A stretch of 64,000 nt of DNA from assembly GCF_018847975.1 (NCBI RefSeq), contig NZ_CP072597.1:1837001-1901000 (forward strand), in the 5' to 3' direction. A program made the translations under genes and the position numbers. Origin of the DNA: Lysobacter sp. K5869. Its GTDB lineage: Bacteria; Pseudomonadota; Gammaproteobacteria; Xanthomonadales; Xanthomonadaceae. Of the stretch, positions 35,870-39,304 are shown one piece after another (position 1 is the stretch's first letter; every line of letters starts with the position of its first letter). Below the pieces are notes generated by a model. The model saw only the letters and a list, made by a program, of their open reading frames with translations. It made no database searches and was not told the DNA's origin.

Positions 35870-36664
35870 TCACGGGCTAGTTCGATCAAGCGACTTTGCG
35901 AGCATGCTGATAAAAGAAATGTAGGCGACTGCATTCTCTGGGTTGTCTTGAACAAGTCCATGTGCTCGAGGGTTTCTAATCGCGAGCATGGCGCCGGAGA
36001 ACAGAAACATCATTCCTTGCTGTTCACTCCGCTCACTATCATTCTGCTGCTCGTTGAACTTGAGAATTGGTGATTTTGGGCTAAAGACTAATTGCATGAG
36101 CTCCGTGCCACTAGGATCCATGCGCATGCTTCTCATCTTGACGAGCATGTCTAGAACTTTGCACGAATTCTCAACCGCTTCTGCGTAGTGTCCGTCCGAA
36201 AATAGCTTTGAGCAGGCACGAGAGATTTCAGGGTGCAGATCCAGGTCTCCGAATGCTCGACGAGCTTTGGAAACGGATGACTCTCCGCCATCCTCGAGTT
36301 TTTCGTGAAACAGCTCAATGATGGTTTTAAGATTTAGTATTTCTCGCTCCCTGCTTTCCTGGACGCTCTGAATTACGTCGCGAAGCGGGGTTTCGTATAT
36401 CATGTTGTAGCCAGCAGTATCGAGTGATCTGGGTTGAAATCTGTTGTATTCCAGCGTGCCATGACCGAACACCTCAGCTACTGTGTCTTTGAGCTTGTTC
36501 TCGATCGAGTCTAAGCGTGGATCACCCCTCTGCGTGAGAGAGTTGGGATTGAATTCCTCCAAGTCTCTTATCCGGCGCTCTAGCTTTGGAATAGCTGAGC
36601 GCATCTGCTCTGAGGAGAGATTTGCCGCAGTTGGTTGTTGTGAGGGGGGTTTTCTAGCAGCCAT
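35870..36664 (-). CDS. TIGR02391 (Ymh-like) family protein
   Basis: A 264-residue protein. The N-terminal half is helical (coiled-coil like); the C-terminal part matches the TIGR02391 domain: LHPEISRACSKLFSDGHYAEA, GTELMQLVFSPKSPILKFN, and GMMFLFSGAMLAIRNPRAHG, with the RNPRAH motif resembling HEPN-type RX4-6H sites. The family is recurrent in phage-defence and abortive-infection contexts, though activity is not established. The GC content is low compared with neighbours. The upstream gene on the same strand is also of abortive-infection type. Confidence 0.88.
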   Translation of the reverse strand: MAARKPPSQQPTAANLSSEQMRSAIPKLERRIRDLEEFNPNSLTQRGDPRLDSIENKLKDTVAEVFGHGTLEYNRFQPRSLDTAGYNMIYETPLRDVIQSVQESREREILNLKTIIELFHEKLEDGGESSVSKARRAFGDLDLHPEISRACSKLFSDGHYAEAVENSCKVLDMLVKMRSMRMDPSGTELMQLVFSPKSPILKFNEQQNDSERSEQQGMMFLFSGAMLAIRNPRAHGLVQDNPENAVAYISFISMLAKSLDRTSP

Positions 36665-36769
36665 GCTCTAGCTCCTCATTAAGTGTGATAAGACTCGTTG
36701 CGACATCCGATGCCTGACTTAACCATGTCGTGAAGGGGGCTCAGCTTGAATGATTTCTAGTCACCAGTC

Positions 36770-37678
36770 CTAAGGCTTGTTGGGGCGGTCATTGTGTGTC
36801 TCAGTAAGAAAGACGGCCAGAGTTGAGGCCGCTCCGGCCGCAAGTTTTGCGTGACGAGGTTTAAGCCCCTTTGTGCTCGCGACCTTGCCATGTCCGGTGC
36901 CATAGTGATTCCTTAGCTCTGCAACGCCTTGGGTAATTGAGGCTAAGTTACTCAGTAATCTCTTGATGGTCTCCGCAGCTTTTGCTTTGTCTGGGATGTC
37001 ATCGGGCGTCAGCTCCAATTCCTTGGCAGTTAGTTTTACTAGCTCTGGAATGTCGGCGGTCCTTGAGAACACCACGTTGCGATCAGACAGAATCGTCTTG
37101 CAGCAGGTTTCGACAAGCTCTTTGGCCGTCCCAATAGCAAGTGACGGATCATTGATTATTGCAGCTTCAATGCGTGTAATTTGCTGTGAGACATAAGATG
37201 GGTCCGTGCCTGCAAGGCTCTCGCGGGCGGCATTGATGCCCGGCGTGGCACTGATTCCAACATATCGGCCGATATAGACAGGCTTTCCAGAGAGACGAGT
37301 GCGCTCAACTAGTTGGAACCCATCATTTCGAAGGTACTGATTAAACATTTGGCAGATGCGCTCTGCTTCTGTCGAGTCAGAGCGGACAACCGGATGCAGC
37401 ACCTCGGCGAGAAATCTGAGAAAAATCTCATCATCGCCATTAAGAATGTTTAGTCGGGTGTCGTAGAAGACCCAGTCATCGTTCCAATCGTAGTTGTTGA
37501 CGCGATGCTGCCAGATATCACCAGCGGCATCCTTGAAGCGTGGATCAAACGAAGGGAGGCTCTGCAGATCAAAGAGGCGAGAAAGGAACTCCGTCTCTTC
37601 TAGGCGGCCGTACAGATTGACCTGTTCAGCTATCATGGCATCGATAATGTCGCGGCGAGTGAGCTGCGATATCTTCAT
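36770..37678 (-). CDS. Abortive infection family protein (AbiJ-like N-terminus, Abi_C domain)
   Basis: A 302-residue protein. The start MKISQLTRRDIIDAMIAE with YGRLEETEFLSRLFDL resembles AbiJ N-terminal domain 3, and the C-terminal half shows the Abi_C region: AKELVETCCKTIL, then AELRNHYGTGHGK. The RNHYGTGHG motif is like the HEPN RX4-6H ribonuclease-type motif. It probably acts as a phage-induced toxin that arrests the infected cell; this is inferred from the family. It is 105 bases upstream of the TIGR02391 gene and shares its low GC content, so the two are likely a unit. Confidence 0.88.
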   Translation of the reverse strand: MKISQLTRRDIIDAMIAEQVNLYGRLEETEFLSRLFDLQSLPSFDPRFKDAAGDIWQHRVNNYDWNDDWVFYDTRLNILNGDDEIFLRFLAEVLHPVVRSDSTEAERICQMFNQYLRNDGFQLVERTRLSGKPVYIGRYVGISATPGINAARESLAGTDPSYVSQQITRIEAAIINDPSLAIGTAKELVETCCKTILSDRNVVFSRTADIPELVKLTAKELELTPDDIPDKAKAAETIKRLLSNLASITQGVAELRNHYGTGHGKVASTKGLKPRHAKLAAGAASTLAVFLTETHNDRPNKP

Positions 37679-38037
37679 GGGCTATCGACAATCTCTCTTT
37701 TGGGAAATGCTTCGTAAGCCCCGAGGTGGGGTATGCGCCAGATGTTCAAGCAGCCTCAGAACGCCGTCAAGGCGCTTCTCGGGCAAGGGTCAATCACGTT
37801 AGCGGCACACCCTATCGCAGGTCTGCTGGCGTGCATATTGAATAATTCGAGGCGATAAGTTGCGTGGCCTCATATTCTCGTTTTCCCGTCACTAGTAGCG
37901 TCGCTGCCGGGCTGTCGCTCCGGAATTCTATTGCAGATACGTATTTGGGCGATGAAATCGGACTTGTCTGATTGACGGCCCTTGTTAAGCCACGCAAAAT
38001 CGTAATCACGGAGTCTCTAAACTCCGCACAAAGCGGT

Positions 38038-38065
38038 ACCCACCTCCGTCAATTGGTGGGTTTTT
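38038..38065 (+). terminator. Terminator-like hairpin
   Basis: ACCCACC (38038-38044) pairs with GGTGGGT (38055-38061) around a 10-base loop and is followed by a T-run that continues to 38065. No gene upstream on this strand ends here, so it may belong to the structured leader downstream, or terminate readthrough from an unseen promoter. Confidence 0.6.
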
Positions 38066-38178
38066 CATGCCTGGCGTTTAGGCATGTCGACGCGTTTTCC
38101 TGCGTCGGGAGGGCGGCTAATACAATACCCGAAAGGGGAATACGCCCACCGGCTTTGTGCGGTTTAGAGCCTCCCGAC
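38066..38178 (+). ncRNA. Structured leader RNA candidate
   Basis: A first hairpin has stem CATGCCT/AGGCATG (38066-38072, 38080-38086). Then an outer stem GTCGGGAGG (38104-38112) with CCTCCCGAC (38170-38178) encloses two hairpins: CCC-GAAA-GGG (38128-38137, a GNRA tetraloop) and ACCG/CGGT (38148-38151, 38160-38163). The three-way-junction layout precedes a small ORF whose ribosome-binding site is at 38222. I recall a comparable leader (CCC-GNRA-GGG then CCGGCTTTGT hairpin) upstream of DUF3077-type genes in Pseudomonas; this is memory, not a search. Confidence 0.55.
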
Positions 38179-38238
38179 ACCCCGCCGGCCGCACGCCGCG
38201 CCGCGCGGGTTTTCCGCTCAAGGACAGGAGTGCCGCGT

Positions 38239-38523
38239 ATGCCCCGTAAATCCGACCCTACGCCCCCGCACGAAGGGGTGGTCATGCCCGTTGACGCGTT
38301 CAAAGCGCTTTCCGCTTTCCAGCAGGAGTTGCACGGGATCGTGCGGACTTTGCAGCCGGAGGTGTTGGTCGAAATCGGTTATCCCGCCGGGCAGGACCAT
38401 CGCTTGCTGCGGGAGGTGTTCCAGGCGCTGGCGCGGCGGCTGGATCCGGTGATGGATGCCTGTGTGTGGTCGCCCGTCGGGGACGAGGGGGCGGGGCCGG
38501 CGCCGTCGCGGCGTCTGCACTGA
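38239..38523 (+). CDS. Small protein, 94 aa, unknown, behind a structured leader
   Basis: A soluble protein with a helical core (AFKALSAFQQELHGIVRTL and HRLLREVFQALARRLDPVMDAC, in parts). It has GGACAGGAG eight bases before the ATG. I do not recognise a family with certainty; the gene organisation, a small ORF after a folded leader, resembles the DUF3077 group of Pseudomonas. GC content is back to genome average. An alternative longer frame from 37972 passes through the leader and is rejected. Confidence 0.6.
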   Translation: MPRKSDPTPPHEGVVMPVDAFKALSAFQQELHGIVRTLQPEVLVEIGYPAGQDHRLLREVFQALARRLDPVMDACVWSPVGDEGAGPAPSRRLH

Positions 38524-38633
38524 CTCGTGGGGGCCCTGCTCCGGTAGCGGGCAGGGCGGTTGCGACTCGCCCTGTCTCGCCGTTGATGCGGTGGGACTTG
38601 GGGTCGACCCGGGCCGCGCCAATCGCAAGCCAA

Positions 38634-38678
38634 AAAAGCCTTGCGTGCGAGCCGAAAGGCGTCGAGCGCAAGGCTTTT
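38634..38678. terminator. Terminator-like hairpin with GAAA loop
   Basis: AAAAGCCTTGCG (38634-38645) pairs with CGCAAGGCTTTT (38667-38678). Inside is a second stem-loop GCC-GAAA-GGC (38651-38660). The flanking A and T runs give a bidirectional terminator shape 110 bases after the small ORF. Confidence 0.6.
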
Positions 38679-38699
38679 GGGGTCGTCGTTAGGCGGTTT

Positions 38700-39040
38700 T
38701 TTGCTCGCCTGTAAGCCGCGCCGTCCCGGTCGCCGCATCGCGCATCCCGGCCGCAAGGCGATTCGCTTTGCGCGTGGGCTGCCGATGCTTGCGCGTGACT
38801 GTTTACGTGTTGCGTTCGCAAAGCGTCGGGTATTGCGCGCAAGCCGTTGGGTTTGCGGTTGCGGCGCGGAGACTTGCGTGTGCTGCGAGACGGCTTGCGC
38901 GCGAGCCGTTGCGGCTTGCGAGCGCAACGCTTGGTGTGTTGCGCGCAAGCCAAATACGACGCGGGCAACCCGTGCGAGGTTGCGGCTGGGTGTTGACGCG
39001 TCGCGTGCAAGCCGCGACGGGTTGCGGCCCGGGCTGCGCG
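38700..39040. repeat. Degenerate TTGCG/CGCAAGCC word array
   Basis: This stretch repeats short words TTGCGCGCAAGCC, TTGCGTTCGCAAAG and variants at roughly 20-25-base intervals, in both orientations. Open frames through it read as Arg/Ala-rich noise on several strands. No gene is seen between 38524 and 39304. Confidence 0.55.
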
Positions 39041-39304
39041 GCTTGCGCTGGGGCCGCCAACCCGGCAGCCCGACAAAGCTGCAGGACGCGGCGGGCCGCG
39101 CCAAGCGCTTGATCCGTAAACCATCGTCCTCGCCATCGGCGTTCAGCGCCGCTGGCGTCGGCGTGCGCACTCGCCCCCAACCGTCCCGCCGCTCGCCCGC
39201 CCATCCGGCCGCTCGCCCCCCGATTCCCCCACTCGACATTTAATCCCCGCGCCCGCCCGGGCCCGGCGATAGCGTGCGATGGCACCCCCATCGAGGCCAC
39301 CCCC

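Follow-up and report, generated by a model that had tools for sequence, protein, structure and literature searches.

A candidate two-RNA antisense module of the C4/IsrK kind in front of an XAC0095-like gene of Lysobacter sp. K5869

The leader of a 94-codon gene in Lysobacter sp. K5869 belongs to the RNA family sRNA-Xcc1 (Rfam RF02221) and is preceded by an element, termed RNA1, that is complementary to one loop and one junction of the leader RNA, termed RNA2. The most likely reading is a two-RNA antisense module of the C4/IsrK kind, set before a small host gene, in which pairing between RNA1 and RNA2 probably sets readthrough. The anatomy, the pairing and its covariation, the cargo genes and the missing second target site (a2/b2) are read directly from the DNA. 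The window analysed is a stretch of 64,000 nucleotides of contig NZ_CP072597.1, and positions are given within it.

The leader RNA and its upstream partner

The initial annotation had described a set of hairpins and stems, a terminator-like hairpin at 38039-38065 and an ORF at 38239-38523, all of which are present where it placed them. The leader structure lies far above chance. The structured leader is real and is already known, as a full-length member of RF02221 (cmscan, 80.7 bits against a gathering score of 53, E 3.4e-13), so it is not the undescribed RNA that had been suggested. Folding energy is weaker evidence than this score, with z values against chance of -1.36 for a 191-nt stretch of the leader, -1.86 for RNA2 (38104-38186) and -2.92 for 38104-38178. 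The new part appears to be the upstream partner RNA1, which was apparently overlooked. The features of the locus are as follows.

37972..38000, plus strand: RNA1 promoter, sigma-70-type, TTGACG-17 nt-CAAAAT, 9 nt before the GGAG hairpin
38010..38065, plus strand: RNA1 (a1/b1 or IsrK-like), putative short terminated transcript, judged by its promoter and terminator
38010..38025, plus strand: a1 hairpin, GGAG-loop-CTCC; loop 38015-38021, CTCTAAA, antisense to RNA2 38163-38169
38027..38036, plus strand: b1, CACAAAG then CGG, antisense to the RNA2 P3 loop 38153-38159
38039..38065, plus strand: RNA1 intrinsic terminator, CCCACC-10 nt-GGTGGG-TTTTT
38066..38086, plus strand: perfect 7-bp hairpin (38066-38072/38080-38086) between the RNA1 terminator and RNA2
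38087..38108, plus strand: hairpin TCGACGC/GCGTCGG, competing with the 5' strand of stem P1 of RNA2
38104..38186, plus strand: RNA2 = sRNA-Xcc1 (RF02221), three-stem RNA, cmscan 80.7 bits
38104-38112/38170-38178, plus strand: RNA2 stem P1, 9 bp
38128-38137, plus strand: RNA2 P2 tip, CCC-GAAA-GGG hairpin
38149-38162, plus strand: RNA2 P3, the second hairpin
38153-38159, plus strand: RNA2 b', the P3 loop, CTTTGTG
38163-38169, plus strand: RNA2 a', junction TTTAGAG
38180..38213, plus strand: GC-rich hairpin with a TTTT end, between RNA2 and the ribosome site
38220..38230, plus strand: Shine-Dalgarno region AAGGACAGGAG, 8 nt before the ATG
38239..38523, plus strand: 94-aa ORF, XAC0095-like small protein, NF047335 27.5 bits
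38634-38678: GAAA-loop hairpin after the ORF

The RNA1 block was found by lining up the genus copies of RF02221 and starts about 95 nt upstream of RNA2. Its promoter and its complementary element (38010-38036) both precede position 38066, at which the initial annotation began. The segment 38007-38066 folds into two hairpins (z -3.26). In an alignment of 52 copies, the composition of which is given below, the promoter is complete in 47 copies and its TTGAC box is kept in 50, the hairpin-plus-T terminator is found in all 52, and the stem of the a1 hairpin is invariant.

Sequence changes leave stem P1 of RNA2 intact: among 185 distinct strand pairs there are 85 distinct helices of at least 7 bp, and 183 of the pairs form at least 6 contiguous base pairs. 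Helices of at least 8 bp are formed by 153 of the 185 cognate pairs compared with 40.5% of non-cognate strands, which pair this often because the sequences are alike. Inside the 52-copy alignment P1 is nearly invariant, with one of nine pairs varying. Some loci found via the RNA1 pattern have RNA2 copies with the tip CTCC-TTCG-GGAG in place of CCC-GNRA-GGG, and this exchange supports the small tip hairpin. The hairpin that competes with P1 (38087-38108) is paired in 97.5% of cells of the 52 copies, compared with 28-48% in slid controls; its changes are mostly one-sided G-U changes, and one of seven pairs changed on both sides, no better than in shuffles. It is a possible precursor switch. In X. 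campestris, where sRNA-Xcc1 was first reported, RACE gave a length of 88 nt and Northern blotting one of about 100 nt, according to the available text of PMC2996969. The mapped length of 88 nt is consistent with the 87 positions of the RF02221 model, and the model begins at the first base of P1.

Complementarity of RNA1 and RNA2

Pairing was tested on the 81 of 294 core matches in which an a1 hairpin of the GGAG/GGAA type and a P3 of the form CCG-N8-CGG are both present. Both selection patterns are blind to complementarity, and removal of duplicates left the 52 copies, none of them from the viral set, with 32 distinct b1 sequences and 37 distinct loops. The b1 element pairs with b' at 7 of 7 positions in all 52 distinct copies, as against 8.9% of non-cognate combinations, whose mean is 5.04 of 7; the highest mean reached in 10,000 permutations was 5.50, compared with the observed 7.00. 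On the alignment, 100% of the b1:b' cells pair and both-sided changes occur at all seven pairs; the a1:a' helix is paired in 93.4% of cells, with both-sided changes at three of seven pairs. The whole paired structure is formed in 98.6% of cells compared with 37-51% in slid controls, and its covariation score is 0.194 compared with 0.050 in shuffles. The shuffles leave relatedness in place, but the pairing extends to distant groups as well. These variable, covarying loops of RNA2 argue for RNA pairing over a riboswitch ligand pocket.

This structure-based comparison of b1 with the P3 loop replaced cruder complementarity scans. Exact upstream complements of at least 7 nt were found for 27/28 distinct 3' segments in the genus set, 75/76 in the named-genome set and 60/67 in the viral set, against 25-28% for non-cognate segments, a level that is high because relatives share loops. 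In the named-genome and viral sets they lie mostly 71-124 nt upstream. Among modules with both flanks, 216 of 233 carry such a complement, compared with 27% for non-cognate combinations; the sense strand of these modules gives 65 of 233. With duplexfold, 188-nt upstream regions and the 3' part of RNA2 gave a mean of -37.4 kcal/mol for cognate and -29.9 kcal/mol for non-cognate partners. The two groups were separated in the mean alone, since long GC-rich alignments prevail, and the cognate RNA ranked first for just 21 of the 171 upstream regions (3/28, 14/76 and 4/67). Gapped local alignment ranked the cognate RNA best for 62/171 (15/28, 31/76 and 16/67), or 22/28 within the genus set alone, and above all 50 shuffles in 98/171.

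The association also holds from the RNA1 side. A DNA pattern for RNA1 that includes no RNA2 letters gave 109 matches in 42 of 198 family genomes, and for the reversed pattern none were listed in these 198 genomes. A listed RF02221 match follows 55-167 nt downstream on the same strand in 96 of the 109; in the other 13, RNA2 is recognisable by eye in 12 (3 degenerate, 2 cut by N) and absent in one. At the window locus, cofolding of RNA1 and RNA2 gains 12.7 kcal/mol over the separate folds, and the second genomic copy gains 9.0 kcal/mol; the crossed combinations of the two copies gain 7.0 and 0.6 kcal/mol. The exact a+b pair is unique in this genome to RNA1 and RNA2 themselves. Sequence evidence for the pairing anatomy of RNA1 and RNA2 is strong, and we conclude that sRNA-Xcc1 would work like an antisense RNA of the C4/IsrK type. 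Because the address differs between loci, differently addressed copies would recognise themselves.

Downstream genes and the second target site

This genome has 2 copies of RF02221. In the genus, 15 of 20 genomes carry it, with 30 copies altogether; it also occurs in 60 of the 198 family genomes sampled and in 26 of 369 from the class, 12 of the latter above the cut-off. Both collection scans with the core motif gave at least 120 stretches, and the motif is common in viral contigs (at least 120 stretches); the invariance of the core in L082-L321 reflects how these loci were selected, because the search motif fixes the conserved core. The proposal of a recurring module of RNA and downstream ORF stands: 29 of the 30 genus copies have an XAC0095 match within 250 nt behind them, and for 280 of the 294 core matches in the loci retrieved, an ORF of 40 aa or longer starts at most 220 nt away, the median being 53 nt past the approximate P1 end. 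Nine of the 14 copies lacking a nearby ORF lie less than 300 nt from a sequence end. Conversely, the RNA precedes 29 of the 58 XAC0095 matches found in the genus.

The 252 distinct downstream proteins were grouped by single-linkage clustering, with members scanned only in part and with ORF starts picked by a simple score (nine proteins have only 40-46 aa, and some are probably spurious). The largest cluster (132 of 252; 50 from named genomes and 82 viral) is of the phage antirepressor type, and all 14 members scanned match AntA, Bro-N, P22_AR_N/C, pRha, KilA-N, ORF6N or ANT. The suspected phage connection is supported. The second cluster (67 of 252) is XAC0095-like, and smaller clusters hold 10 proteins of no recognised kind, 6 proteins of which the single member scanned matches pRha below threshold, and 5 proteins with a SymE match in one scanned member. 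Of the further idea that the module controls a toxin, only this minority cluster of 5 among 252, with its one scanned SymE member, can be retained; the window ORF has no Pfam match. The proposed link to DUF3077-type genes of Pseudomonas found no support among the ORFs examined: the two that were scanned match Bro-N, and 13 of 14 further ORFs from Pseudomonas-type loci look alike by eye. At the Pseudomonas loci L083 and L094, the Bro-N-type gene begins some 125 nt beyond RNA2, and b2, a ribosome site and an ATG lie well before it, an arrangement that recalls the translational coupling of icd or orf45. At L392, L396 and L398, an XAC0095-type module adjoins a second module in back-to-back orientation, and both possess an RNA1 and an RNA2 of their own. 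The second ORF at L396 is a SymE match, the two modules there share the address CACACAG, and the SymE-side RNA2 is degenerate; given the shared address, these modules may cross-regulate.

The window ORF scores 27.5 bits with NF047335 (XAC0095), under the curated cut-off of 34, and six of seven scanned XAC0095-type relatives behind similar leaders pass this cut-off (L002 with 53.3 and L090 with 72.3 bits, for example). Homologues number 33 at E<=0.001, the named ones mostly from Lysobacter (L. enzymogenes and relatives). The predicted structure of the 94-aa protein, from 16 sequences, consists mostly of two helices (mean pLDDT 76.5), and a PDB search gave no match at E<=0.001; therefore no function is assigned from structure. 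In X. citri, XAC0095 is said in the accessible part of PMC2883993 to interact with HrpG, and an XAC0095 transposon mutant is among the altered-virulence mutants in the available text of PMC2653504. Four XAC0095 genes lacking the RNA (L329, L331, L333 and L334) share the operator-like palindrome TATTCAAAAATAGAATA, beside which L331, the one locus examined for this, has a divergent HTH_3 gene encoding an 80-aa protein. These palindromes, the HTH_3 neighbour and the antirepressor cargo elsewhere suggest that XAC0095 proteins may act on DNA-binding regulators. In the window, the region after the ORF (38600-39060) holds many repeated TTGCG/CGCAAGCC-like words and hairpins. Directly upstream of the locus lie two Abi-related genes on the minus strand (35870-37678; Hypoth_Ymh, and AbiJ_NTD3 with Abi_C), a possible defence spot.

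The two main cargo classes differ in a second target site. In the antirepressor class, 103 of 112 copies have a downstream complement of at least 7 nt, at a median of 26 nt before the start codon, compared with 19.4% for non-cognate combinations, and in several of the copies displayed it runs into the ribosome site. Phage P1 carries the signature b1-CGG versus b2-AGG (GTTAGTGCGG, GTTAGTGAGG). The antirepressor copies have b1-CGG in 94/112 and b2-AGG in 40/112 (non-cognate 4.3% and 1.9%), whereas the swapped signatures b2-CGG and b1-AGG occur in 0/112 and 1/112. In the XAC0095 class, the upstream a1/b1 complement is kept in 67 of 68 copies, whereas a downstream complement of at least 7 nt occurs in 10 of 68, not above the non-cognate level, with a median position inside the ORF. 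The window copy (L001) has a longest downstream complement of 6 nt and thus no a2/b2 over its ribosome site; its GC-rich hairpin at 38180-38213 sits where antirepressor copies have a2/b2-like complements. Among the 29 XAC0095 genes of the genus lacking the RNA, 17 were read, and three of these (L348, L350 and L351, the last identical to L387) retain the promoter and RNA1. Judged by eye, none of the three has an intact terminator U-tract. Joint loss of RNA2 and the U-tract, in three cases, accords with attenuation but would also suit antitermination or plain decay. The three loci are natural variants useful for work on the mechanism.

Proposed control and relation to known antisense RNAs

We infer the transcripts, their processing and the regulatory outcome as follows. 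A sigma-70 promoter would give a short RNA1, with the a1 hairpin and b1-CGG, that mostly stops at the intrinsic terminator, and readthrough would give a longer transcript holding RNA2 and the 94-aa ORF. By analogy with C4, RNase P may free RNA2 as a small RNA by cutting at the foot of P1, and the b' loop and a' junction of this RNA would then bind the b1 and a1 elements of the locus that encodes it. Where an antirepressor gene follows, a' and b' mostly also match the complement before the start codon, like a2/b2 in phage P1, and RNA2 would cover that site too. In the window class this second site is absent and only the terminator-side site is left, which points to control by readthrough: pairing beside the RNA1 terminator would set readthrough into the ORF, a feedback attenuation as with the P4 CI RNA. 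The window copy is probably a domesticated, self-addressed version that acts at the RNA1 terminator.

RNA1 might instead be an activator or sponge that pairs in trans with RNA2, opens or titrates it and so raises expression of the ORF. IsrK does so in Gifsy-1, where according to the accessible text of PMC4825925 the short RNA switches on its own readthrough mRNA, and RNA1 likewise has its own promoter and terminator and a cofolding gain of 12.7 kcal/mol with RNA2 in the window. The XAC0095 class, however, lacks a complement at the ribosome site by which RNA1 could free the ORF, and we regard this explanation as possible but doubtful. It shares all its anatomy with the attenuation model, so that sequence cannot separate the two; nor can it decide the sign of control, which by analogy could be termination, as with P4 CI, or the opposite, activation by the short RNA, as with IsrK. 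It is rather unlikely that the upstream element and RNA2 are merely alternative folds of one transcript that switches in cis, with no trans-acting RNA. The partners do lie in one transcription direction, 55-167 nt apart, and the hairpin that excludes P1 is conserved, but an intrinsic terminator stands between them in 52 of 52 copies and sRNA-Xcc1 has been observed as a separate RNA of about 88-100 nt, by the available text of PMC2996969.

SymE-type ORFs behind some copies (PF08845 at L054 and L396), together with a 2025 integron paper whose accessible text pairs sRNA-Xcc1 with symE, call to mind a type I toxin-antitoxin system with RNA1 as antitoxin and the ORF as toxin. The two largest cargo clusters are nevertheless of the antirepressor type and XAC0095-like, RNA1 is complementary to RNA2 with no complement at the ribosome site in the window class, and SymE occurs only at other copies than that of the window, whose ORF lacks a Pfam match, all of which makes a pair of the SymE/SymR kind highly improbable here. 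Least probable of all is that sRNA-Xcc1 is an independent trans-acting virulence sRNA to which the ORF and the upstream complement are incidental. A 2011 paper, by its title as cited in the available text of PMC12444791, calls it trans-acting and under HrpG/HrpX control; against this stand the upstream complements in 216 of 233 modules, well beyond the non-cognate and sense-strand levels, the same protein family behind 29 of 30 genus copies, and the lack of a second exact a+b site in this genome.

With the readthrough-controlled antisense module as the preferred reading, a wider one may be offered tentatively, at less than even confidence. RF02221 may be an unrecognised lineage of C4/CI-type phage immunity RNAs, domesticated in Xanthomonadaceae as portable, multi-copy, self-addressed attenuators (several per genome, mainly self-regulating), each driving an XAC0095-type protein that would act on DNA-binding regulators like phage antirepressors. 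This would amount to the transfer of a phage lysis/lysogeny RNA switch to host genes, and since its address code can be read, specificity, the insulation of copies from one another and the way the second target is gained or lost are all open to direct testing. If sRNA-Xcc1 homologues are C4-type RNAs with a built-in partner, their first target would be their own locus and predictions of distant targets that use the b' loop would need rethinking.

In the accessible parts of the published accounts, sRNA-Xcc1 figures as an sRNA with predicted trans targets (212 host targets in one study of a homologue), as an RNA carried in vesicles, or as a cassette-borne RNA that precedes symE. The portions of this literature available to us name no upstream partner and no antirepressor link, and an earlier mention, for instance in the 2011 paper or in subscription journals, is possible. 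In the literature searched, the one paper found to mention sRNA-Xcc1 alongside C4 antisense RNA or an antirepressor is on Xylella; it has C4, isrK and sRNA-Xcc1 close together in one strain and, in the portions available, draws no link. Rfam files sRNA-Xcc1 as a lone sRNA gene outside any clan, whereas here it is paired with RNA1.

With E-value limits of 1 for the window, 0.01 for 16 other loci and 10 for L089, the Rfam models C4, c4-a1b1 and isrK gave no match, and the c4 of phage P1 has no match to the RF02221 model; among the 16 loci there are no sequences intermediate between the RF02221 and C4 models. Kinship with C4 therefore rests on anatomy and not on a model score. The P4 CI RNA, with seqA and seqC, is likened to the module by description and not by sequence: in the accessible text of PMC4825925 it is a processed leader RNA that pairs with upstream and downstream sites and causes transcription termination, whereas the window class has no downstream site like seqC. 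IsrK of the Salmonella prophage Gifsy-1 (RF01394) is, in the same text, a short RNA that ends at a terminator and is complementary to a segment further along its own readthrough mRNA, and the putative RNA1 likewise has a promoter, an intrinsic terminator and a complement in the readthrough mRNA of its locus; IsrK differs in acting on the translation of orf45-anrP, whereas the window has one ORF.

The closest likeness in anatomy is to C4 of phages P1 and P7 (RF01695, RF03163). In P1 it forms part of the immunity locus that controls the lytic switch, where a2/b2 lie across the ribosome site ahead of the antirepressor operon. The P1 record annotates a promoter, a1 and b1 (putative targets), the C4 RNA, a2/b2 (targets, icd ant mRNA), icd and ant1. 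By Rfam, this stretch holds c4-a1b1 at 218-270 and C4 at 338-423, and a sub-threshold isrK match at 231-312 (35.1 bits against a gathering score of 50) that ends in the terminator. RF02221 copies share with C4 the promoter, a1 in a hairpin loop, b1-CGG, the terminator, the upstream a1/b1 complementary to a'/b', a three-stem RNA whose closing stem P1 is long, with an a' junction and a b' loop, and the controlled ORFs behind it. According to the available text of PMC5320573, RNase P processes C4 at the 5' end of stem P1, and the annotated C4 starts at the base of its own P1, as the RF02221 model does. The RF02221 copies differ in that RNA2 has a distinct conserved core and in that the window copy, with no a2/b2, precedes an XAC0095-like ORF in place of an antirepressor.
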